Source: Gammaproteobacteria bacterium (GTDB lineage Bacteria > Pseudomonadota > Gammaproteobacteria > SG8-11). From it: a DNA stretch of 38,816 nt. This document shows, piece by piece, positions 63-38,816 of this stretch (position 1 is the stretch's first letter; each line of letters begins with the position of its first letter). Below the pieces are notes generated by a model. The model was not told the origin of the DNA and made no database searches. It worked only from the letters and a program-made list of their open reading frames with translations. The stretch lies in the NCBI GenBank assembly GCA_013151345.1, contig JAADIM010000029.1, positions 1 to 38,816 on the forward strand, in the 5' to 3' direction. The translations under genes were made by a program, and so were the position numbers.

Positions 63-1112
63 CTATACTATGGTTTTCATTGGCTCCAATAGCAAATCAT
101 GTACATCATCATCACTGGTTCGATTTCCAAGCCAGGTGTTCCAGCCAAGCAGGTCATTTTGCCCGAGATTAAAATGCGGAACTTTTTCCTTTTTCAGCAC
201 AAGATTCACGTCCCAGTTCATACTGTCGCCGACGTAATTACGCACCATAGACCGCAGACGTTGACTACTCCCCCTGCCGGGTAACATACGTTCATAGTCA
301 TTAAAGTTCAATGGACCAAGGATAATGCGGAATTTCTGCTGGCATTGCCATACATAGTCGCCTATTGCGATATTCACGCCTAAGGTTCCCGTTTCCGGTG
401 AAATCCCAAGTTGACAGCGGCAGCTATCGGGCAACGCCATCCATTCGCCGATGAACTGTTCAATAACAACTGGCATATTAAAATAACTTTTGATCATAGC
501 GGCCAAGCCTTCGGCATTGCGCGTTTGGGATGACAATCTTCCAGCAAAATGTAGTTTCGCAAGATCGGGCATTTCGTCGCGGTTTCGCAACGACGGCATA
601 CCCAGACCAAACAACGCACCTATATAAGTACTAAAACGATCTTCTTTCGGTCGATCAAAATTAACGGTGGGCTGAGAGTTAGCCCAGCTACGATAAAAGA
701 GTGACAACATCCGGTGATGAAATATATTGAGAAATTCACTGATAGTGGGATCATCAGAGTTACGTAATCGATCACGCGCGTACTCGGTGAGGTGCAGTGG
801 TAACGGCCCGTTAGGGCCAAACATACCAAAAAAATTAACTGATAATTCGGATGGTTTACCCTTCTTCCCGGTTTTGAAGGAGGCCAGTGTGGCTGGCGAA
901 AATGCTAAGGAAGGTTCTTGCGCAAGTCGCACTGCATCATCGACAGGCCGCACCGATTCACCTATTCTGGGTTTGTTACGGTTTAAACATTCAAAACGTC
1001 GAAGCGCTTGATAGAAACCAAATTTATAAGGTTTCTCTTGGAGCTCTTTCTCTAGTGCAGCTATAGCCTCCAGTGCTATAGCATCTGACGTCGGCCGATT
1101 CTCACTGGCCAT
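63..1112 (-). CDS. tssG: T6SS baseplate protein TssG (ImpH/VasB)
   Basis: TssG is part of the TssEFGK baseplate wedge that anchors the type VI sheath and tube to the membrane complex at the inner face of the cytoplasmic membrane. The 349-residue product has the normal family length and TssG features, including the N-terminal stretch KPYKFGFYQALRRFE and the RVGES-like IGESVRPV segment. The frame is open further upstream, but the ATG at 1112 is chosen because a strong ribosome site (AGGGGAG) lies 8 bases before it and the product then starts MASENRPTSD. Its start overlaps the end of tssF by 37 bases, which suggests translational coupling. It is the last T6SS gene in the window; the 62 bases after it hold no recognisable start. 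Confidence 0.93.
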   Translation of the reverse strand: MASENRPTSDAIALEAIAALEKELQEKPYKFGFYQALRRFECLNRNKPRIGESVRPVDDAVRLAQEPSLAFSPATLASFKTGKKGKPSELSVNFFGMFGPNGPLPLHLTEYARDRLRNSDDPTISEFLNIFHHRMLSLFYRSWANSQPTVNFDRPKEDRFSTYIGALFGLGMPSLRNRDEMPDLAKLHFAGRLSSQTRNAEGLAAMIKSYFNMPVVIEQFIGEWMALPDSCRCQLGISPETGTLGVNIAIGDYVWQCQQKFRIILGPLNFNDYERMLPGRGSSQRLRSMVRNYVGDSMNWDVNLVLKKEKVPHFNLGQNDLLGWNTWLGNRTSDDDVHDLLLEPMKTIV

Positions 1113-2953
1113 CGCATTATCTCCCCTCGTCTTTCCGTCTTGATTACCGTTTCTGTAAATGAATTGATGGATACGTATTTTGCGAAAAAATCTTCTAAAA
1201 TGGCGCCTAGTAAAAAGCAACCAGTCCCTACAAAGGCGTCTTCATCCATGGTCACTGTCACTTCTAGTCCCCGGCCAAACGTGATGGGTCCTGTGATTGG
1301 CATACGACGGGTAATGGGAACGGCTGCTACGGATAGAATACCTTCTATTTGTTTTTCGATATGGGCTTCGGTGATATAACCGTAGAGCGTAAGTAACTCC
1401 CGCAATGCTGTCGCGCCTTTTTGATCATCTGAATCTACGATTGAAAGATAATTCAACGATAAGTGACTGATCAATCGCCAAGCCGTATCACCTTCCGCAT
1501 AAGATCGTTTTGGTTTACTCGGCCCTACCAGACATCGAACCGAATCCACCGGTGCTCCAGATTCCAATGTAAAGTCGGTTTTGTCAAGACCCACCGGCAT
1601 ATGCAATGGCAAATCCCGATTGGTACACAAGGTGGTCACAGCGAGTTGGCGCAGCTCCGTGGAATAAGGTGCTTCACCGGCGTCAACAAGGGATACAAAT
1701 ACTTCGCTGCCCACATAGTTAGAACGCGGTCCATAGCGTTGTTGGCGTATCGATAACAGCCGTGCTTCTCTGCGCGCAGTGTAATAGGCGCTGTTCCCTG
1801 TGCGAAGACTTGTTTCATCAGAGGAATAAAACGGCAAAAATGCCTGCTCGCGATTTTCACCAGTGCCATGGCCGACCACGCCAGTAACCTGGTAGACTTC
1901 AAAATCCATCGGCCGGGTAAGGTCAGGCACGACGTGATACTCGTGTTCTTTGGTATTGAGATGAATACGGTCTGCTCGCTTGGGAAACAGGTTAATCGCT
2001 GTTGAGCAAAACAATGCAAACGCGGAAGCATCAATTTTGTGTTCCAATACTGGATTAATACGATCCAGTAAAATGAATATTTCCAATTCGCTATCCGTAC
2101 AACTTCGCATGGCTTCCCCTAGCCCAGTCAAATCGACGAACAAGTAACCGCTTGGAAAAGCAAAATACTCATGCAGTAAACGATAACCACTAAATGATTG
2201 CGCCCCACAAGGTAACATCGCCTCATTTTCATCAAAACCGACGCGGCGGATGTTGCTTCGATCAATGACGTGTTGCCACGACGCTGAGCCTGAAATCGAC
2301 CGCACAACCATGGCAACACTATTGCCTAGTATTTGCTCATAAATCTGCATAGGAAGCTCATCGCTGCCGCGCAAATACACGGGAAGGTCTTCAAGTGACA
2401 ACTTATCAAATGTAAGCCCTGCGGTGGTGCGGAGTCGCAACCGAAATGCGGCTTTAGGCGCGGGCAAATGTGGCTCATTGATTTTGGGTAAGGCAATAGT
2501 GTTGGTGATGTATTCCGCTTCTGCTACCTCCAGCGGCCATAAGGTCACATCGTGCGAAGTGCGGAACTCACACGGAGTTTGTTCTCCTTTTCCGGGCAGG
2601 CTGCGCAATGCACTCTGTCGTGGCACTGGGAATCCTTCAGCCAACGCCCCTTCGGTTAAGTCCGGCTGGAATTGCACAACGGCCATAGAAGGGGTTGGCG
2701 CTAAATAGTGTGGATAGACCATCTCAAGTAAATGCTGAGTGAAGGTCGGAAATTCTGCATCAAGCTTATATTGAATACGTGCCGCCAGAAAGCCGAAACC
2801 TTCCAGTAGGCGCTCTACATAGGGGTCTGTACACTCAAACTCGTCTAATCCTAAGCGCCCTGCTATTTTGGGATAACGTTTGGCGAAATCACTGCCCATT
2901 TCGCGTATATAGTGCAGCTCAGAGTTGTAATACTCCAGCAACCTTGGGTCCAT
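1076..2953 (-). CDS. tssF: T6SS baseplate protein TssF (ImpG/VasA)
   Basis: TssF pairs with TssG and TssE in the baseplate wedge of the contractile injection machine. The 625-residue product has the family length. It starts MDPRLLEYYNSELHYIREMG and ends with the typical C-terminal block YVSINSFTETVIK...RGEIMRWPVRIGRR. The ATG overlaps the tssE stop as TAATG, with GGAGTGG just upstream. No frameshift or missing segment was seen. The gene is an inner member of a tightly packed run (tagJ-tssE-tssF-tssG) in which every junction overlaps, so these proteins are probably made in fixed ratio from one mRNA. Confidence 0.95.
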   Translation of the reverse strand: MDPRLLEYYNSELHYIREMGSDFAKRYPKIAGRLGLDEFECTDPYVERLLEGFGFLAARIQYKLDAEFPTFTQHLLEMVYPHYLAPTPSMAVVQFQPDLTEGALAEGFPVPRQSALRSLPGKGEQTPCEFRTSHDVTLWPLEVAEAEYITNTIALPKINEPHLPAPKAAFRLRLRTTAGLTFDKLSLEDLPVYLRGSDELPMQIYEQILGNSVAMVVRSISGSASWQHVIDRSNIRRVGFDENEAMLPCGAQSFSGYRLLHEYFAFPSGYLFVDLTGLGEAMRSCTDSELEIFILLDRINPVLEHKIDASAFALFCSTAINLFPKRADRIHLNTKEHEYHVVPDLTRPMDFEVYQVTGVVGHGTGENREQAFLPFYSSDETSLRTGNSAYYTARREARLLSIRQQRYGPRSNYVGSEVFVSLVDAGEAPYSTELRQLAVTTLCTNRDLPLHMPVGLDKTDFTLESGAPVDSVRCLVGPSKPKRSYAEGDTAWRLISHLSLNYLSIVDSDDQKGATALRELLTLYGYITEAHIEKQIEGILSVAAVPITRRMPITGPITFGRGLEVTVTMDEDAFVGTGCFLLGAILEDFFAKYVSINSFTETVIKTERRGEIMRWPVRIGRRQML

Positions 2954-3462
2954 TAAACCACTCCTGAGTAATCATAAACCTTCACATCGCCCACCTCGAG
3001 ATCGAGTTCGGTTTTTAAATAGACATGGAGTGGTGCCGGGTGAGCCCACAACTCACCTTCGATATCAAATGTCATGGCATTATGGTTCATCTGTTGTTCG
3101 TCCTTAAAGAGACGAACTCTGACGGTGCGACGCAGGATACGTGGCTCAAAATCACAAATCGCCTGGCGTAACTGCCGTTCGATTTCAGGCACATCGACAC
3201 CTGATACCGTATGTCCGGAAAAACAAGGCATGCCATAATTGAGTACCGACTTGGCCACCTCCGGATAGGCATCAAGATTTTGAACGGTAGCGAGATTGCT
3301 GGAATTAAACAACCAATTCAAATCACGCAAGACGGATTGGCGTAATTTCACCAGTGATAATCCGCGTTTTTCTTTGGGTTCACTTTTTATTTCTGGTTCA
3401 TCATCGGTGAGCCGGTCCAATAGAAATGGTTGCAGTCGCTCCTGATTCCGTGAATCAGCCAT
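2953..3462 (-). CDS. tssE: T6SS baseplate protein TssE (gp25-like)
   Basis: TssE is the gp25-like baseplate component that starts sheath polymerisation. The product, about 169 residues, carries the gp25/lysozyme-like domain in its C-terminal two thirds: an N-terminal LQPFLLDRLTDDEP motif, then YPEVAKSVLNYGMP, then FEPRILRRTVRVRL. The start is placed at the ATG at 3462, giving MADSRNQERLQPF; upstream codons in frame (KKKPKCRKPRK) are lysine-rich, unlike the family, and lie inside tagJ. The start overlaps the tagJ stop by 8 bases (ATGGCTGA). A GGAAGG site sits 11 bases upstream. Confidence 0.93.
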   Translation of the reverse strand: MADSRNQERLQPFLLDRLTDDEPEIKSEPKEKRGLSLVKLRQSVLRDLNWLFNSSNLATVQNLDAYPEVAKSVLNYGMPCFSGHTVSGVDVPEIERQLRQAICDFEPRILRRTVRVRLFKDEQQMNHNAMTFDIEGELWAHPAPLHVYLKTELDLEVGDVKVYDYSGVV

Positions 3463-4324
3463 CAGTGTCGAGCCCTTCCATTGAGTTGATTTCCGAGGTT
3501 TGCGGCACTTGGGTTTCTTCTTCATCCTGGGTATCCAGGGAGATCAGACGCAAGTCCATCAATGAGAACTCACCTTCATCGGTGGCAAACATGCGTTGTC
3601 CTAGTCCCAGATAAACATCGGCTTCATGTTCCTGCCAAATGGTTTTATGGGCGGTGCGAATCTGGTTATCATCACTGTCTTCAGAATCAGGATAACGTGT
3701 AGGGATCAGTCCAACGGTTTCTCCCCCATTGGCCCAGGTGAAATAAACCGGCGTCCACACCATATCCCGCATATCTTCTGGCGCCACGATATTGATGGTG
3801 CGTATGCGATGAAACGGCACCCAATAATAACGGCCATTAATAATGGCCTCAAGCATAGGTCCTATTCGAGAATCGGCATCGGCAATCCAATTAAAAACCT
3901 GGCCATCCGGGTCGCCTATGGTGCCTGAGGTAACTGGTGCCTGTTCGAAAGCTTGCTCGCGAATATCCTGGGACTGAGCATACTGACCGTCTGCCGTTAA
4001 GCGCAGCGCCTCAAATACTAACGCTATCCATTGTTCGGGTTTGCCGAACACGATAGGCGAACGCTTACCAGCGAACACTTCCGCCCTTAAGCCTTCACAG
4101 AGCAATGCTTCGCGATACGTCTGCACCATCGCCAACGTGCTGACATCCAACTCGCCAGCCACATTGAGTTGGGTCAAAGCACGATCCCACTGTCCCATCA
4201 CCGCAAGCAGTTGAAACAAGAACACCCGATATTTAACATTGGAAGGATCACTGCGTACACTTGCCTGCAACTGACCTAGCGTTTCTTCCAGTTTGCCTTC
4301 AGACAAGCTTTCCAGAGCTTCCAT
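3455..4324 (-). CDS. tagJ: T6SS accessory protein TagJ (ImpE)
   Basis: TagJ/ImpE is an accessory protein which in Pseudomonas aeruginosa H1-T6SS binds the sheath subunit TssB and is thought to modulate ClpV-driven sheath recycling. The 289-residue product has TPR-like helical repeats in the first ~130 residues (LSEGKLEETLGQLQASVRSD and following) and the ImpE signature region WIADADSRIGPMLEAI, GRYYWVPFHRI and NGGETVGLIPTRYP. The C-terminal ~25 residues are acidic. An AAAGGGGAAGTT site directly precedes the ATG. Its place between hcp and tssE matches H1-like clusters. The ATPase TssH, its expected functional partner, is not in the window. Confidence 0.92.
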   Translation of the reverse strand: MEALESLSEGKLEETLGQLQASVRSDPSNVKYRVFLFQLLAVMGQWDRALTQLNVAGELDVSTLAMVQTYREALLCEGLRAEVFAGKRSPIVFGKPEQWIALVFEALRLTADGQYAQSQDIREQAFEQAPVTSGTIGDPDGQVFNWIADADSRIGPMLEAIINGRYYWVPFHRIRTINIVAPEDMRDMVWTPVYFTWANGGETVGLIPTRYPDSEDSDDNQIRTAHKTIWQEHEADVYLGLGQRMFATDEGEFSLMDLRLISLDTQDEEETQVPQTSEINSMEGLDTDG

Positions 4325-4521
4325 AACTTCCCCTTTGCCACGCCGTGGACAATATAATACGGCAGCGTTCTAGAAGCCAATGTACACGATACCGTTATGG
4401 ATTGGATGGCTTCATACTCACTGCTTTAATAATCACCTGTCAACAAATCAGGGCCCCACTTAGCAATAAGTACAGCAGAGCCCATTTTTAGCTAACGGTG
4501 AATATGAAAGTGACGGGAGCT

Positions 4522-5007
4522 TTAAGAAGCATCCACATTCTTGGCGATGTCCCATCCAATGATGACAGACGCATCACCAGAACCATCGCCTTTTTGTGGA
4601 ACATATTCAGTCTTGAATTTGGAGAAATTCAAGGCAACATTCTCAGTTAGTCTATCCTCACCTCCGGAACCACCCGTTGACACCGAAGAGATAAGCCCAT
4701 CCTCCATTATAATCTTCATGTACTCCAGGGGCGTCTTTCCAGCTTTACGAACCACCAATGTAGCCTCTTTAAAGTGCGTGCCATTACAGCACATCTTCAT
4801 CAAATTAGGTGAGGCCTTATCAGTATAGTGGGTAAACGAAAGGTCCTGAACATTAACCTTGCCTGCACCACCACCCGCACCCGAATGTGTCGTGCCCGAC
4901 TGAGACATACCCCAACTCCAGGCCAATAAATCTATCTCGTCCGCATGCGAATCATCTATAGACTCGCCTTTAATGTCATCGATTTTAATAAACATGTCTA
5001 CAGCCAT
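4522..5007 (-). CDS. hcp: Hcp family T6SS tube protein (TssD)
   Basis: Hcp forms hexameric rings that stack into the inner tube and is secreted with effectors. The 161-residue product is a standard single-domain Hcp (MAVDMFIKIDDIKGES, then LLAWSWGMSQSG, then DLSFTHYTDKASPNLM and the ATLVVRKAG strand) with no C-terminal effector extension. AAGGAG lies 8 bases before the ATG. Unlike its neighbours it is set off by long gaps, 268 bases upstream and 197 downstream, so it may have its own promoter; no clear sigma-70 box was identified. Cysteines occur in an MCCNG segment in mid-protein. Confidence 0.96.
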   Translation of the reverse strand: MAVDMFIKIDDIKGESIDDSHADEIDLLAWSWGMSQSGTTHSGAGGGAGKVNVQDLSFTHYTDKASPNLMKMCCNGTHFKEATLVVRKAGKTPLEYMKIIMEDGLISSVSTGGSGGEDRLTENVALNFSKFKTEYVPQKGDGSGDASVIIGWDIAKNVDAS

Positions 5008-5275
5008 GATAATCTCCTTAATTTCCTAAAAGTTTGTTGTTGTCTGCCATTGATACCGCAAATGGCCCTTAGTTTCATTTTAATACTTATTTTCATTTTA
5101 ATAATAGTTCCCTTTTGTTAACAGCTCCGTTTTTACTGCACCTTATTTCACCTTACTTTTTTATACACCTTACATTGTTAAACCTGACGCCATTAGAACA
5201 GAACACATCCTCTTGACGCCGCAACAATTTCTATAATCGCCAGACTAAACTGCACCGTCAAAAAACAGCTACCCT

Positions 5276-6772
5276 TTAGCCACCTTTTACTGACGGCAGT
5301 TTAGATACCAGCCTCAACGACACCGTTAGTCCTTCCAGCTGATAATGCGGTCGCAAGAAAAATTTTGACGTATAGTAGCCTGGATTGCCCTCTACCTCCT
5401 CGACAACCACCTCAGCCGCAGCCAACGGTTTGCGGGCTTTGGTGTCCTCAGCGGAATGTTGAGGATCGCCATCGACGTACTGCATAATCCAGTCTTGCAA
5501 CCATCTTTGCATATCGTCCCGTTCCTTGAAAGAGCCAATTTTGTCACGCACGATACACTTCAGATAATGCGCGAACCGGCAGGTGGCGAACAAGTACGGT
5601 AGTCGCGCTGCCAGATTGGCATTCGCGGTCGCATCCGGATCATCGTATTCGGCCGGTTTCTGCAGTGACTGGGCACCGATGAAGGCGGCGATATCTGAAT
5701 TTTTACGATGGATGAGCGGCATGAATCCATTCTTTGCCAATTCCGCCTCCCGCCGATCACTAATGGCAATCTCTGTCGGGCATTTCATATCAACACCGCC
5801 ATCATCGGTGGGAAAAGTATGCGCAGGTAACTCTTCAACCAAGCCACCAGACTCAATGCCTCGAATACGCGAACACCAACCATAATTCTTAAAAGACCGG
5901 TTAATATTGACCGCCATCGCGTAAGCCGAGTTTGCCCATGTATACTTACTACTATCAGCGGCCTCGGTATCTTCCTCAAAGTTAAACTCTTCGACCGGAT
6001 CGGTTTTGGCGCCATAGGGTAACCGGGCAAGAAAACGTGGCATTGCTAAACCAATGTAACGCGCATCCTCTGACTCACGCAATGACCGCCATGCAGCATA
6101 TTCAGGTGTTGTAAATATCTTGGTTAAGTCCCGTGGATTACTCAATTCCTGCCAGCTATCCATTTGCATCAGTGTAGGCGCCGCCGCAGCGATAAAAGGA
6201 GAATGGGAGGCCGCCGAGATTTGCGCAATCTGCCCAAGCAACTCAACATCTGGCGGACTGTGATCGAAGTAATAATCACCCATCAAACAACCATAAGGCT
6301 CACCACCAAATTGCCCATATTCTTCTTCGTACAGTTTTTTGAATATCGGACTTTGGTCCCAGGCTGTGCCCTTGTAACTTTTCAAGGTTTTGTGCAGATC
6401 TTTCTTCGAAATATTCAAGACACGAATCTTGAGCATCTCATCCGTTTCTGTGTTATTGACCAAGTGATGCAGGCCACGCCAGGCACCTTCCAGTTTCTGG
6501 AATTCATCGTTGTGCATGATGAGGTTAACTTGGTCACTCAGTTGTTTATCGATTTCAGCGATCATCGACTCGATCGATTCCATCACGTCCGATGATATCA
6601 GGCTGGTATACTGTAACGCTTGCTCAGCAAGTGTCTTAACAGCATCTTCAACCGCCTTTTTAGAACGATCAGACTTTGGCTTGAATTCTTTTTCAAGCAG
6701 CGTGCTAAACTCGTTCGCCTCCAGAGGCTTAGCTTCAGGCTGTACCTGCGCGTCAGTTTCGCTTTCGGCCAT
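5276..6772 (-). CDS. tssC: T6SS contractile sheath large subunit TssC (VipB)
   Basis: TssC, with TssB, forms the contractile sheath around the Hcp tube. The 498-residue product has family length and clear TssC landmarks: EFQKLEGAWRGLHHLV near residue 95, FGGEPYGCLMGDYYFDHSP near 155, SPFIAAAAPTLM near 192, and the C-terminal FFLRPHYQLEGLTVSLRLVSKLP. The first ~20 residues are acidic and low in complexity, typical for the family. Translation is coupled to tssB: the two genes are 4 bases apart and the AGGAGA ribosome site lies inside the end of tssB. Confidence 0.97.
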   Translation of the reverse strand: MAESETDAQVQPEAKPLEANEFSTLLEKEFKPKSDRSKKAVEDAVKTLAEQALQYTSLISSDVMESIESMIAEIDKQLSDQVNLIMHNDEFQKLEGAWRGLHHLVNNTETDEMLKIRVLNISKKDLHKTLKSYKGTAWDQSPIFKKLYEEEYGQFGGEPYGCLMGDYYFDHSPPDVELLGQIAQISAASHSPFIAAAAPTLMQMDSWQELSNPRDLTKIFTTPEYAAWRSLRESEDARYIGLAMPRFLARLPYGAKTDPVEEFNFEEDTEAADSSKYTWANSAYAMAVNINRSFKNYGWCSRIRGIESGGLVEELPAHTFPTDDGGVDMKCPTEIAISDRREAELAKNGFMPLIHRKNSDIAAFIGAQSLQKPAEYDDPDATANANLAARLPYLFATCRFAHYLKCIVRDKIGSFKERDDMQRWLQDWIMQYVDGDPQHSAEDTKARKPLAAAEVVVEEVEGNPGYYTSKFFLRPHYQLEGLTVSLRLVSKLPSVKGG

Positions 6773-6776
6773 CGCT

Positions 6777-7313
6777 TTATTTCTCCTCTGCCTTAGGTGT
6801 CTCGGATGCTTCTTCTGCTTCAGGGTTTGGCGCGGATACCAATGCCGCTAATAGTGCGGGATCACCTATCGCTTTAGCGATCAATTCCTCTGCACCGGTT
6901 TTACCATCCATATAAGTCACTAGATTAGATAGTTGCGTGCGTGCTTGCAACAGTTTATTCAGCACATCAACTTTGCGCGCAATGGCAGCGGGAGAAAAAT
7001 CATCCATACTTTCGAAGGTAATGTCGACGCTGAGATTTCCCTCGCCTGTCAGTGTATTGGGAACCTGAAAGGCAGCGCGCGGCTTCATTGCCTTCATACG
7101 TTCGTCAAAATTATCCACGTCGACTTCGAGGTACTTGCGCTCGGCAACAGGCGCCAGCGGTTCAGATGGCTTCCCGGACAGGTCTGACATAACCCCCATC
7201 ACGAAAGGTAATTGAATCTTCTTTTCCGCACCATAAACTTCTACGTCATATTCGATTTGCACACGTGGCGCGCGATTGCGTGCAATAAATTTTTGGCTAC
7301 TCGCTTTTGCCAC
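6777..7313 (-). CDS. tssB: T6SS contractile sheath small subunit TssB (VipA)
   Basis: TssB is the small sheath subunit, which interlocks with TssC and is the contact for TagJ in H1-like systems. The 178-residue product shows the family core: RVQIEYDVEVYGAEKKIQLPF, then VMSDLSGKPSEP, then FDERMKAMKPRAAF, then FESMDDFSP. The start codon is GTG, preceded by a near-perfect AGGAGGTG ribosome site 4-6 bases upstream; this decides the start. The C-terminal ~20 residues are rich in Glu and Ala. The gap of 141 bases to tssA leaves room for a promoter, but none was assigned. Confidence 0.96.
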   Translation of the reverse strand: MAKASSQKFIARNRAPRVQIEYDVEVYGAEKKIQLPFVMGVMSDLSGKPSEPLAPVAERKYLEVDVDNFDERMKAMKPRAAFQVPNTLTGEGNLSVDITFESMDDFSPAAIARKVDVLNKLLQARTQLSNLVTYMDGKTGAEELIAKAIGDPALLAALVSAPNPEAEEASETPKAEEK

Positions 7314-7454
7314 AAGACACCTCCTATTAATTCATGTTAATTCAAGTTGTTAAATATTTTTTGTTTACTTATTGTTGTTAACTACGGTTGAGCGAAATAG
7401 AACCCAATACATCCAACAGTATGGCACTTCATCCCTATAATTTCTTAATTATCA

Positions 7455-8498
7455 TTACTGCTTTTGTGTCAAAACCCCAATGACCTCCTCGGCTTGCGTA
7501 ACACCCGCGGGGGTCAACTCGCGCAAAATCTCCATAAAGTCCTTTGCTACCAGACGTTTAGCGCGCTGCAGCAGCAATGGCACGGGACTGGATGGCTCAT
7601 GTTGCACAAAATAATCACACGCCATGTCTAACACCCGAATCACATCCTCACGACTGTTTATTTTGCCGCCCACCAGCCCAGATACAGTTTGTGAACCGTT
7701 CACCTCTCCCACAATTTCAGAGGGCACGCCAGTAGTATCACCGGCACCTCGTTGAGTTAAATGTTCGGACATAACCTGTTGTGCCTCCTTTAATAAATTC
7801 GGCAGTGTGCTGAAATCCGCCATCTGCATCGCGCCAACCTTCATCATCAGCAGCGATTCGATAGCTGCCACACATTCAATCGCCTGGCGAATTGCATCTG
7901 CGGTGTTTTTCAACTCATCAAGTGACGCATCCATAAAAGCGCCATTAATCGTCGAAACCTCTATGGGTTGCTCTTTAGAACCGGAGGGGAGTGACAACTT
8001 CCCTAGAGCAATTAGAATATCACGAAGACTAAGTCGGCCAAATACCGTTGAATTAACCAATGTTGTTTCACGTACGCTATGCAACACTGTACCAGAATCA
8101 CATAGTGAGGCCAGGGTGTTAATGCGCAAAGTCGGGTCGTTGTTCTCGGTAGGGTCCAGTCGCGGGTGCACCGCATCCCAATAGCTCTCCAGCAGACCTT
8201 GAATTAAGACCAAACCATCCCGCAAGCCTGTCAGGCCGTCGGTATGTATCAGCGCCTGAGTTAGATTAACTGCCACACGAAGATCTTTGGTACGCCCGAA
8301 CAGCTTTACTGCTTTCTTTAGCACCTTGGCACTGTCTGCCTCCTGCGCTGGAATTAAGGTATCACCGATTTGTTGCTCCGGCTTACCTTGTGCAGTTCTC
8401 TGCATTTCGCCGAATTCAGGATCGTACTCAAGATTCTCTCCGCAGGGGACCTCGGTCGACACTTCCTTCAGTAAGCTTTTAACATCTATCAAGCTCAT
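7455..8498 (-). CDS. tssA: T6SS baseplate/sheath-priming protein TssA (ImpA)
   Basis: TssA helps assemble the baseplate and prime sheath and tube growth. The 347-residue product starts with the ImpA N-terminal domain (PCGENLEYDPEFGEMQ, KDLRVAVNLTQALI, SYWDAVHPRLDPTENNDPTLRIN) and ends with the short conserved block SREDVIRVLDMACDYFVQHEPSSPVP...LLQRAKRL. Length and ending resemble the short TssA1 class of P. aeruginosa rather than the longer VasJ/VgrG-linked classes. GGGAA lies upstream of the ATG. It is the first gene of the T6SS run here, so the region just upstream, including three 14-bp repeats at 8603-8644, is where the main T6SS promoter is expected. Confidence 0.94.
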   Translation of the reverse strand: MSLIDVKSLLKEVSTEVPCGENLEYDPEFGEMQRTAQGKPEQQIGDTLIPAQEADSAKVLKKAVKLFGRTKDLRVAVNLTQALIHTDGLTGLRDGLVLIQGLLESYWDAVHPRLDPTENNDPTLRINTLASLCDSGTVLHSVRETTLVNSTVFGRLSLRDILIALGKLSLPSGSKEQPIEVSTINGAFMDASLDELKNTADAIRQAIECVAAIESLLMMKVGAMQMADFSTLPNLLKEAQQVMSEHLTQRGAGDTTGVPSEIVGEVNGSQTVSGLVGGKINSREDVIRVLDMACDYFVQHEPSSPVPLLLQRAKRLVAKDFMEILRELTPAGVTQAEEVIGVLTQKQ

Positions 8499-9750: not shown

Positions 9751-10367
9751 TTCATCCGTTGAAAAGTCTTCGTCAATTGCCTACTATCGCCAGCACTCCG
9801 AGAAATTGGTAGACAGGTTCCTAGTGGGGACCAACTCATCGGAGGTTAAAATCCCATCCACGACTAGCATACCCTTCCAATTAACTTAGCACTTTCAACC
9901 GTGGAGGATATTTTCCTTTTTGCCCAAACCTGCGAATATGCCTCTCTTACTAACGACTTACCTAAAGAGGATAGCTGATAACTCATCGCTGGCTTTTGCG
10001 CAATTCATAAGATAGTGAAGCCATCAGTAAATCTTAAGGTAAAGATTATAGCGTTAAAAATGGCTATTATGATAAATGAGATAATGGTTTTTCTGTTAAA
10101 CCTAACACATCAGTTGGATCGTAGCGAGGGTGCCTAAGGTGCTGAAGATAGCGTGTTTTTCCATTTTTTAAGGCGATCGCGTAGTCATTCTACGGGTAAG
10201 TCTTAAAAACTGGAAAAACGCGTTAGATTCAGCGCATTAGGTGCCCGCGGTAGATCCAACTGATTTATTTAGGTTTAAAGGTCATCATCCCATAATGCTG
10301 CAATAAATTATTATTCTTTCATTTTTATATCCCTGTCCCCTATTAAACATACCAGGAAAAATAAGAC
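9751..10367. other. Intergenic region with tRNA-like remnant and long palindrome
   Basis: About 620 bases without a supported gene. The left part (about 9789-9860) resembles a degenerate tRNA-Leu: AAATTGGTAGACA matches a class II D-loop, and a 5-bp stem with a 7-base loop can form at 9816-9832, but no matching acceptor stem is present. The right part holds the palindrome at 10098-10276. A weak AGGA ribosome site precedes the response regulator gene. Confidence 0.55.
10098..10276. repeat. 179-bp near-perfect palindrome, copy A (core TAG-TCATT-CTA)
   Basis: The two arms of about 87 bases (10098-10184 and 10190-10276) are imperfect inverted copies around the 5-base loop TCATT at 10185-10189. 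Outer ends AAACCT/AGGTTT pair, followed by ATCAGTTGGATC (12 bases identical in the inverted arm), then CTGAA and GTTTTTCCA blocks, and finally GTAG/CTAC at the loop. As RNA it would form one very long hairpin. There is no open frame and no transposase, so it is MITE-like or BIME-like. A second element with the same loop and closing bases lies at 38588-38746. Confidence 0.88.
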
Positions 10368-27821: not shown

Positions 27822-29129
27822 ATGCCTGCACCCGGCAACATCACTCGGGTCGATTTTGATAAGGCCAGCAGCCCGATAAATTCGTTGTTAACGTCCTATC
27901 AACAAGTTCGGAAACAATCAGAAATCCTGTGCCAGAAACTTGAAATCGAAGATTACGGAATCCAGACATTTGAAGATGTCAGTCCACCAAAGTGGCATTT
28001 AGCCCATGTGAGCTGGTTCTTTGAAACATTTTTGCTCAAACCTTACGTGGCAAATTACCGCATTTTTCATCCAGAATTTGCTTATTTATTTAACTCATAC
28101 TACGAAACCGCAGGGTCATTTCACCCTCGACCAGAGAGAGGGCTATTGTCTCGACCAACGGTCAAAGAGGTGTACCAGTACCGCGCGTACGTAGATGAAC
28201 ACATGAATCAACTGTTAACCGATTGGGATCATGAGCAATGGCGTGACATTGATTCCCGAACATGGGTTGGCATTCATCACGAACAACAACACCAGGAATT
28301 GCTTTTAACGGATATTAAATATAACTTTGCTTACAATCCATTACGCCCGATCTACAATCCGTTACACCCTACTTACGAAACAAACAAACCAAGCGTGCGC
28401 GATTTACCTGGATTACGTTGGATTGAATTTGATGAAGATCTTGTCGAAATCGGTTATAAAAGCGATGGATTTTGCTACGACAATGAACTTCCACTCAACA
28501 AAGTATTTCTCGCGCCTTATAAACTCGCATCGTGCCTGGTCACCAATGGTGAATTTATAGAGTTTATTGAAGCGAGAGGTTATCAAACTGTTCGACTTTG
28601 GTTATCAGACGCATGGAAAACACTGCGTACACAAAACTGGCGAGCACCCCTCTATTGGGAAAAATCAGGCGGCCAATGGTGCTATATGACGTTATCCGGC
28701 ATGCAGGAAATTAATGAACACGCACCCGTTTGCCACGTAAGTTTTTATGAAGCCGATGCATATGCTCGCTGGAAAGGCAAACGACTACCCACAGAAGCCG
28801 AGTGGGAAGTTGCCGCGAAAAAGATACCGATAACAGGAAATTTCTTAGAATCTGGATATTTACAACCCATCACTGTTCAAGCTAATGATAAATTAGCTCA
28901 GATGTTTGGCGATGTATGGGAATGGACGCAATCACCTTATACACCCTACTCTGGTTACCAACCACTCAAAGGAACGTTAGGTGAATACAATGGCAAGTTC
29001 ATGTCTAATCAGATCGTACTTCGGGGTGGGTCTTGTTTGACATCTAAAGATCATATACGCGCGAGTTACAGAAATTTCTTTTATCCAAAAGATCGCTGGC
29101 AGTGTAGCGGTTTTCGACTGGCGAAATAA
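27822..29129 (+). CDS. egtB: Ergothioneine synthase EgtB (sulfoxide synthase)
   Basis: EgtB is a non-heme iron enzyme that uses oxygen to join a thiol donor (gamma-glutamylcysteine or cysteine) to hercynine. The 435-residue product has an N-terminal DinB-like domain with the likely iron ligands H62 (in WHLAH), H153 and H157 (in HHEQQHQE), and a C-terminal formylglycine-enzyme-like domain from about residue 200 ending RGGSCLTSKDHIRASYRNFF and WQCSGFRLAK. AAGGA precedes the ATG by 6 bases. It is followed 9 bases later by egtD. No egtA, egtC or egtE is present, as in many proteobacterial sets. Confidence 0.95.
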   Translation: MPAPGNITRVDFDKASSPINSLLTSYQQVRKQSEILCQKLEIEDYGIQTFEDVSPPKWHLAHVSWFFETFLLKPYVANYRIFHPEFAYLFNSYYETAGSFHPRPERGLLSRPTVKEVYQYRAYVDEHMNQLLTDWDHEQWRDIDSRTWVGIHHEQQHQELLLTDIKYNFAYNPLRPIYNPLHPTYETNKPSVRDLPGLRWIEFDEDLVEIGYKSDGFCYDNELPLNKVFLAPYKLASCLVTNGEFIEFIEARGYQTVRLWLSDAWKTLRTQNWRAPLYWEKSGGQWCYMTLSGMQEINEHAPVCHVSFYEADAYARWKGKRLPTEAEWEVAAKKIPITGNFLESGYLQPITVQANDKLAQMFGDVWEWTQSPYTPYSGYQPLKGTLGEYNGKFMSNQIVLRGGSCLTSKDHIRASYRNFFYPKDRWQCSGFRLAK

Positions 29130-29138
29130 TACATTAGT

Positions 29139-30107
29139 ATGAGCAGTAACAACAATAATCCAATTCAGTTCTATGATTTACACCCGAAAGCTGAAGATTT
29201 TTATACAGAGATACTCGATGGATTAAGAAACGAGCAAAAAACTATTTCACCTAAATATTTATATGATAAAAAAGGCTCGGAAATATTTGAGGAAATAACC
29301 GAACTACCTGAGTATTACGTAACGCGCACAGAGAAAACAATACTTGAAGATAACGCAATTGACATTGCCAGTTATATTCAAGAAGGCTGCCTGTTAGTAG
29401 AACCCGGTAGTGGTAGTAGTGAAAAGGTACGAATACTGTTAGATGCAATAAAGCCAAGCGTCTACGTACCAATGGAAATATCTAAGTCACATCTTAAATC
29501 TTCGGCACAGAGCTTATCAGAAGATTATCCCTGGCTTGACGTGCATGCAGCTTGTGTTGATTTTACGACCACAGACGAGTTGCCATATGCGCCAAAAAAT
29601 ATGCACAAGGTCGCTTTCTTCCCTGGATCAACAATTGGTAATTTTGAACCGGAGGAAGCGATACGTTTGCTCAATAATATATCCAAAATGGTGGGTTCCG
29701 GTGGTGGTTTGCTTATCGGCGTCGACTTGAAAAAAGATAAATCTACTCTCGAAGCAGCCTATAGTGATAAAGAAGGTGTAACCGCCTCATTTAATTATAA
29801 TTTACTTACTCGCATAAACCGAGAACTCGATGCAAACTTTAAACTTGATGAGTTTGACCACCATGCTTTTTATAATAAAGAACAGGGTCGAATGGAGTCA
29901 CATCTTATAAGCCAATGTGAACAGACAGTTTCAATTGATTCTCACTCGATCGACTTTGAACAAGGTGAAAGCATTCATACTGAAAATTCCTATAAATACA
30001 GTATTAACGAGTTTAATGAAATTGCGCGGCAAGCCGGTTTCGAAGATAAAAAAGTCTGGACTGATGACGACGAATTGTTCAGCGTGCATTATCTTGAATG
30101 TAAATAG
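29139..30107 (+). CDS. egtD: L-histidine N-alpha-methyltransferase EgtD
   Basis: EgtD trimethylates the amino group of histidine with SAM to make hercynine, the EgtB substrate. The 322-residue product has family length, with SPKYLYDKKGSEIFEEITELPEYYVTRTE near the N-terminus, the SAM-binding EPGSGSSEK (88-96) and the FFPGSTIGNF motif (160-169). It is 9 bases after egtB with no clear ribosome site of its own, so translation probably depends on egtB. Together the pair forms a minimal ergothioneine operon, on the strand opposite to its neighbours. Confidence 0.96.
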   Translation: MSSNNNNPIQFYDLHPKAEDFYTEILDGLRNEQKTISPKYLYDKKGSEIFEEITELPEYYVTRTEKTILEDNAIDIASYIQEGCLLVEPGSGSSEKVRILLDAIKPSVYVPMEISKSHLKSSAQSLSEDYPWLDVHAACVDFTTTDELPYAPKNMHKVAFFPGSTIGNFEPEEAIRLLNNISKMVGSGGGLLIGVDLKKDKSTLEAAYSDKEGVTASFNYNLLTRINRELDANFKLDEFDHHAFYNKEQGRMESHLISQCEQTVSIDSHSIDFEQGESIHTENSYKYSINEFNEIARQAGFEDKKVWTDDDELFSVHYLECK

Positions 30108-38523: not shown

Positions 38524-38587
38524 TTTAGATCCCCGAAGATAAGTTTAATTTAGGTTTAAGCACCACGGGTATTAAAACATGTTGATT

Positions 38588-38746
38588 AGGAATGCGCACG
38601 TAATAACATCCTATTTTGGCGTAGATATTTTTCTTTCTGTCGAGGCGCAAACAGGTACGCATAGTCATTCTATGAAATCCTGTTTGCAACGACGGCATAA
38701 AGGAAAATAACACGTCAAAATAGGATGTTATTACGTGCGCATTCCT
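38588..38746. repeat. 159-bp palindrome, copy B (core TAG-TCATT-CTA)
   Basis: The arms 38588-38664 and 38670-38746 are inverted copies around the loop TCATT (38665-38669). The outer 31 bases of each arm pair perfectly, a 28-base middle pairs partly, then GCAAACAGG pairs perfectly and CATAG/CTATG closes at the loop. It holds no real gene. It shares the loop and closing bases with copy A at 10098-10276 while the arms are otherwise unlike, and it lies just upstream of the thioesterase gene. Confidence 0.9.
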
Positions 38747-38816
38747 TAGCATTAGGCAAAATATTCTATCCATAAAAGAAATGCCTAACGACGGGAAGTG
38801 AACCTATACGACTAAA

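Follow-up and report, generated by a model that had tools for sequence, protein, structure and literature searches.

The window (the whole stretch of DNA analysed, 38,816 nucleotides) carries, as judged from translations only, a type VI secretion-like cluster at 63-8498 on the - strand, with TssG, TssF, TssE, ImpE-like, Hcp, TssC, TssB and TssA-like proteins, and at 27822-30107 on the + strand a pair of neighbouring ORFs similar to the ergothioneine-synthesis proteins EgtB and EgtD. The features studied here are two palindromes with the same centre. The core TAGTCATTCTA (TAG-TCATT-CTA) occurs twice in the window, both times on the + strand, at 10182-10192 and 38662-38672, and was absent from 100 shuffles of the window. 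Palindrome 1 (approximately 10101-10273) has arms at 10122-10184/10190-10252 and an outer pair at 10093-10120/10253-10280. The inverted arms of palindrome 2 (38583-38622/38712-38751) are 93% complementary, with an unbroken run of 31 pairs between 38588-38618 and 38716-38746. The arm sequences of the two are unrelated, and TAG-TCATT-CTA is almost all that they have in common. The initial annotation had reported the shared centre in one orientation, and arms that differ between the palindromes yet remain self-complementary (31 uninterrupted pairs in the second); all of this was confirmed. It had also excluded a normal transposed repeat, and in this it was wrong. Both palindromes are transposed repeats, ie MITEs of two different families, each with its own terminal repeats and target duplications.

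Two families of miniature elements

Element A is a one-arm MITE of 173 bp at 10101-10273 (+ strand) with termini CCTAA...TTAGG. It belongs to family A, of about 41 copies, which has CCTAAATWAATCAGTTGGATC ends (CCTAAAT). An exact 5-bp target duplication, mostly WTNAW, flanks 31 of the 41 copies; that of the window copy is degenerate (TTAAA / TTTAA). The arm of element A (10157-10217, + strand) scored 26.5 bits with covariance model R1 (E 4.4e-5). It is a shortened hairpin that lacks the positions corresponding to the AAGGCG / CAACGC bubble of the model, and the core at 10182-10192 forms its apex on the + strand. Family A, like a one-arm family of another genome (G236), thus retains no more than a reduced arm. 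No autonomous element with family A ends was found in the 68.5% complete source genome or in the fetched loci. Copies L001, L002, L008 and L232-L236 are a longer variant (219-234 bp), in which one side is extended by an additional outer segment, GAAGCTTCCGCTCCTGCTCACGCCCC, with another CCTAAAT end beyond it, as though the end had been re-acquired further out.

Element B, also a one-arm MITE and 157 bp in length, occupies 38589-38745 (+ strand) and was delimited by its inverted repeats and by a second genomic copy; its termini are GGAATGCGCACG...CGTGCGCATTCC. The left terminal inverted repeat, which is also the outer helix (38589-38618, + strand), pairs perfectly with the right one (38716-38745, - strand). 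These ends (GGAATGCGC) are flanked by a TTA target duplication at 38586-38588 and 38746-38748, and the pair A38588:T38746 of palindrome 2 lies within that duplication, outside the element. The same 3-bp rule (TTA/TAA) was followed by several copies of the one-arm family of G236. The arm, located by model R1 at 38630-38705 (+ strand), has a GAGGCG / GCAACG bubble, a 7-bp middle helix and the core as its apex (38662-38672, + strand). It scored 54.9 bits (E 3.9e-13), family B being absent from the model alignment. Family B has two copies, and the second (G000:C22:11712-11868) has flanks, TCA/TTA, that are not identical to each other. No ORF of at least 90 aa lies inside element A (173 bp) or element B (157 bp). 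Characters by which MITEs are recognised were found, namely a length below 500 bp, a non-coding sequence, terminal inverted repeats, target duplications and multiple dispersed copies.

The source genome (2.18 Mb in 134 contigs, 68.5% complete) was scanned for the core. Seventeen exact cores were found, against none for a reversed control, and each of the 17 lay within a palindrome: 14 belonged to family A, two to family B (the window copy included) and one to family C. The cores thus neither fall into one alignable repeat family nor occur mostly without flanking symmetry, the two outcomes that would have spoken against the initial annotation. In 30 other genomes of the class (L018-L047) the exact-core matches were mostly due to chance and had no symmetry. 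Family C is represented by a 271-bp element with ACTAGGGYYTGTTGACGTTTCAT ends. Two further families of the source genome were recovered with the covariance model: family D, with TATACCCGTRGCG ends, at least 10 copies and the loops TCGCT or CGGGA, and family E, with CATGGGCTTGTCAA ends. The same interior hairpin is therefore present in at least five families of this genome, each of which has its own kind of ends. The TCATT loop of the core is not universal, family D having TAG-TCGCT-CTA, and the conserved signature is broader than the core, including the AAGGCG and CAACGC bubbles. Short duplications at the apex (for example GTAGTGTAGTCATTCTAC) or runs of N were seen in copies of families A and D (L003, L005, L007, L011, L217, L226, L389 and L390), and are either an assembly artefact at the palindrome or real slippage.

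A hairpin with fixed bubbles and variable stems

The arm is a hairpin of about 75 nt with the core at its apex. From the outside inwards it consists of an outer helix, an AAG/a loop, a GCG:CGC step, a CAA bulge, a 7-bp helix, a 4x3 bubble, a 6-bp helix and the TCATT loop; the unpaired motifs (AAGGCG, CAA bulges) are fixed and the stems vary freely. The pattern AAGGCG-N-TAGTCATTCTA-N-CAACG, in which each gap could range over 6-20, was used to scan 84,980 species genomes. The matches listed that had a telling title came from Beta- or Gammaproteobacteria, except for a single Chitinophaga-labelled MAG and some entries labelled only as bacterium or Proteobacteria. Together with other loci the matches listed formed 49 clusters, whose stems could not be aligned from one cluster to another, and among the matches listed most clusters had gaps of 14 and 13 although 6-20 were permitted.

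In 33 unrelated families the helices were defined by covariation, and they run from -1:+1 to -3:+3, from -8:+7 to -14:+13, and from -22:+22 outward. In alignment A1 of 33 families 87.7% of the stem cells were paired, compared with 56.9% after shuffling, and two-sided changes were seen in 308 cells, compared with 107. The covariation score was 0.753 (0.179 when shuffled), and structures slid along the alignment gave 0.11-0.17. At two helix positions G.U was the commonest pair. The near-invariant parts of the arm are the GCG:CGC step and two unpaired motifs, AAG and CAA, the column composition being AAGGCG on the left and CAACGC on the right. The invariance of the apex in the aligned arms is due in part to the search pattern, which demanded the core.

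Among the families tested, a second arm was recovered in 25 elements. It is inverted, lies mostly 30-32 bp from the first and had not been used in the model. Found without any requirement for the apex, it has the loops TGGTCATTCCA and others. Watson-Crick pairing was observed in 76% of its cells, compared with 32% after shuffling, and the identity of its stems to those of arm 1 in the same element was 0.357, against 0.320 between elements, ie the stems are unrelated. The minimum-energy folds predicted for whole elements have a terminal stem, two long arms and, between these, a short CCC-GGG hairpin.

Each G.T mismatch corresponds to an A.C mismatch on the opposite strand. On the arm strand, the mismatches of arm 1 were G.T in 69 cases and A.C in 21 (p 4e-7), or 45 and 18 (p 9e-4) when the two positions that prefer a wobble pair were left out; arm 2, read on its own strand, gave 30 and 5 (p 2e-5). 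The excess of G.T over A.C on the arm strand indicates that one particular strand is selected as a folded single strand, and this would be the strand whose 5' to 3' direction leads from either end of the element towards its interior. One-arm families showed no orientation bias relative to the flanking genes (12 same, 13 opposite), and for that reason a role as a cis-acting mRNA element is unlikely. Orientation relative to local GC skew, taken as a measure of replication-strand preference, had opposite signs in the two families tested.

Ends, distribution and known systems

The covariance model detected arms in 98 of the 274 class genomes scanned (E<=1e-3). Of 299 genomes sampled from the phylum, 98 had arms (E<=1e-4), and many of these do not belong to the class. 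Two of the four order-level relatives of the source genome had arms, and two had none. Inverted repeats bound 30 of 37 new loci found by the model but none of 222 displaced control positions, and the sizes of the bounded loci fell into two groups, 149-193 and 253-287 bp, with ends of many kinds. The arm module recurs in one- and two-arm MITEs of Beta- and Gammaproteobacteria and beyond. A typical element is about 268 bp long and has two inverted arms with unrelated stems, and the one-arm elements measure about 160-180 bp. Relatives were found on named replicons of Vibrio, Pseudoalteromonas, Pseudomonas, Azotobacter, Halomonas and Acinetobacter; neither these replicons nor the plasmid records with relatives carry any annotation of the element.

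The target duplications of arm-bearing elements are TA, TWA or 5 bp, so the arm is not tied to a single transposase. The length of the duplication and the bases at the ends point to putative IS5/Harbinger-type (TWA), IS630-type (TA) and IS1380/piggyBac-type ends. Ends of the type TATACCC...CTCAAGATGC were found at an IS630 transposase gene. In the fetched loci no transposase was seen between matching ends, whether of family A or of other types. Loci L106 and L109 (Deefgea) and L155 (Thalassotalea) have ends that are near-identical within one genus, around arms with unrelated stems. Stems would thus turn over faster than ends.

Several known systems resemble the arm in part. In integron attC sites the fold and the protruding bases are conserved, the stems are free and one strand is recognised. 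The arm is like attC in all these respects, but its conserved positions at the hairpin base have neither the inverse core RYYYAAC nor the core GTTRRRY, and its surroundings are MITEs flanked by target duplications instead of cassette arrays. REP/BIME sequences, which are associated with RAYT (TnpA-REP), are imperfect palindromes with conserved mismatches that are recognised in a strand-specific manner as single-stranded DNA. The arm shares the imperfect palindrome, the conserved mismatches and the strand specificity. REPs have a length of 20-40 bp, and most bear a GTAG or CGTC tag at one end (PMC3733652). A Y1 transposase was more frequent in arm-rich genomes (20/22 vs 6/15), but an arm lay within about 2 kb at only one of 20 Y1 transposase loci, and G051, which is 100% complete and rich in arms (15 matches), has no Y1_Tnp. 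A RAYT/Y1 transposase was therefore rejected as the partner of the arm, being missing from that complete genome and not adjacent at 19 of the 20 loci.

Like the prokaryotic MITEs Correia/NEMIS, ERIC, RUP, QMITE and Chunjie, the arm-bearing elements are short and non-coding, with terminal inverted repeats, target duplications, high copy number and long stem-loop folds (PMC10969869, PMC2229807). Each known family, however, is one alignable sequence with one kind of ends, whereas many arm-bearing MITEs have one fold in common although neither their ends nor their stem sequences are related. CIR elements of Caulobacter/Brucella also have two hairpin arms, a linker and a conserved motif in the apical loop, but they are alphaproteobacterial, lack terminal inverted repeats and carry GANTC (PMC2229807). 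The window and 18 loci gave no Rfam match above the gathering threshold, tRNAs excepted. The core appears in no relevant open-access paper, and the literature was otherwise general work on MITEs and REPs. MITEs are thus already known, as are repeats with two arms (CIR) and hairpins recognised by their structure (REP, attC); no description of one fold common to MITEs with unrelated ends was found in open-access papers, Rfam or annotated plasmids, although an earlier one is possible.

Function of the arm

The arm is very probably a conserved structural module, in which the unpaired positions are kept and the helices drift by compensatory change. A structural function for a family conserved in loop and fold, and not in stem, was one of the two origins offered by the initial annotation, and it is upheld by the covarying stems and fixed unpaired motifs of 33 unrelated families, and further by the common fold and different stem sequences of the two arms of one element. 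The best overall explanation, to which we give a probability of roughly 0.6, is that MITEs of different families enclose the same structural module, most likely a DNA hairpin that would be recognised by its structure and would aid the movement of the MITEs that carry it. We infer the following course. A hairpin or cruciform would be extruded during replication or supercoiling, a host factor or some widely shared protein would recognise the folded single strand, and the arm would be an accessory site making short elements efficient substrates for whichever transposase fits their ends. An accessory site of this kind would explain why unrelated transposon ends have repeatedly enclosed the same arm. 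Action at the DNA level, taken alone, is a tentative assignment at a little under even odds; it is favoured because a MITE would be selected chiefly for moving as DNA. The chances are about equal for and against a still unnamed module, defined by fold and present in MITEs of several unrelated transposases across Proteobacteria, that serves as a shared, strand-specific hairpin signal for mobilisation or tolerance. On the other side, no binding protein or autonomous partner of the arm was found in the source genome or the fetched loci, family A and the G236 family have only reduced arms, and the support is comparative throughout.

The strongest rival is that the arm works as RNA, a hairpin in a read-through or element-borne transcript being recognised by a common RNA-binding protein or nuclease. 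The strong excess of G.T over A.C on the arm strand speaks for this, and the two positions at which G.U is commonest would suit RNA as well or better. Two inverted arms would place a functional arm first in either direction of transcription, and two-arm elements do present a correctly oriented arm in each reading direction. NEMIS/Correia MITEs are, moreover, processed by RNase III (PMC10969869, PMC2229807). An RNA role would nevertheless require a benefit to the host, while the copies behave like neutral insertions, and the unbiased orientation of one-arm families and the lack of an Rfam match also count against it. We consider it unlikely, although a serious candidate.

Fold-back copying at the core, the other origin offered by the initial annotation, would have one arm rewritten from the other by hairpin-templated repair or replication slippage. 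Stems that differ freely between families and yet remain paired are what it predicts, and the small apex duplications of some family A and D copies lie where slippage would act. Such copying, however, would erase internal mismatches first, and it is precisely the bubbles that are the most conserved part of the arm. The bias of the mismatches to G.T on one strand, which points to selection on the folded strand, and the module spacing fixed at 14/13 where 6-20 was allowed also speak against it, and it is very improbable. Least probable of all is ordinary divergence from one MITE, with a functionless arm whose symmetry is left over from a recent origin: it would account for the common layout and size of the elements, but pairing that is not under selection should be lost at the same pace as sequence similarity, and stems with no sequence similarity still pair in approximately 76-88% of cells and show nearly three times the two-sided changes of the shuffled alignment (308 vs 107).

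MITEs are usually taken to need only their ends. An interior conserved by fold alone, between unrelated ends and in a large part of the phylum, implies that the host cells supply a shared partner. The arm can readily be used to test whether hairpins of DNA (or RNA) aid the movement of short elements, and the covariance model should mark many repeats that are at present unannotated.
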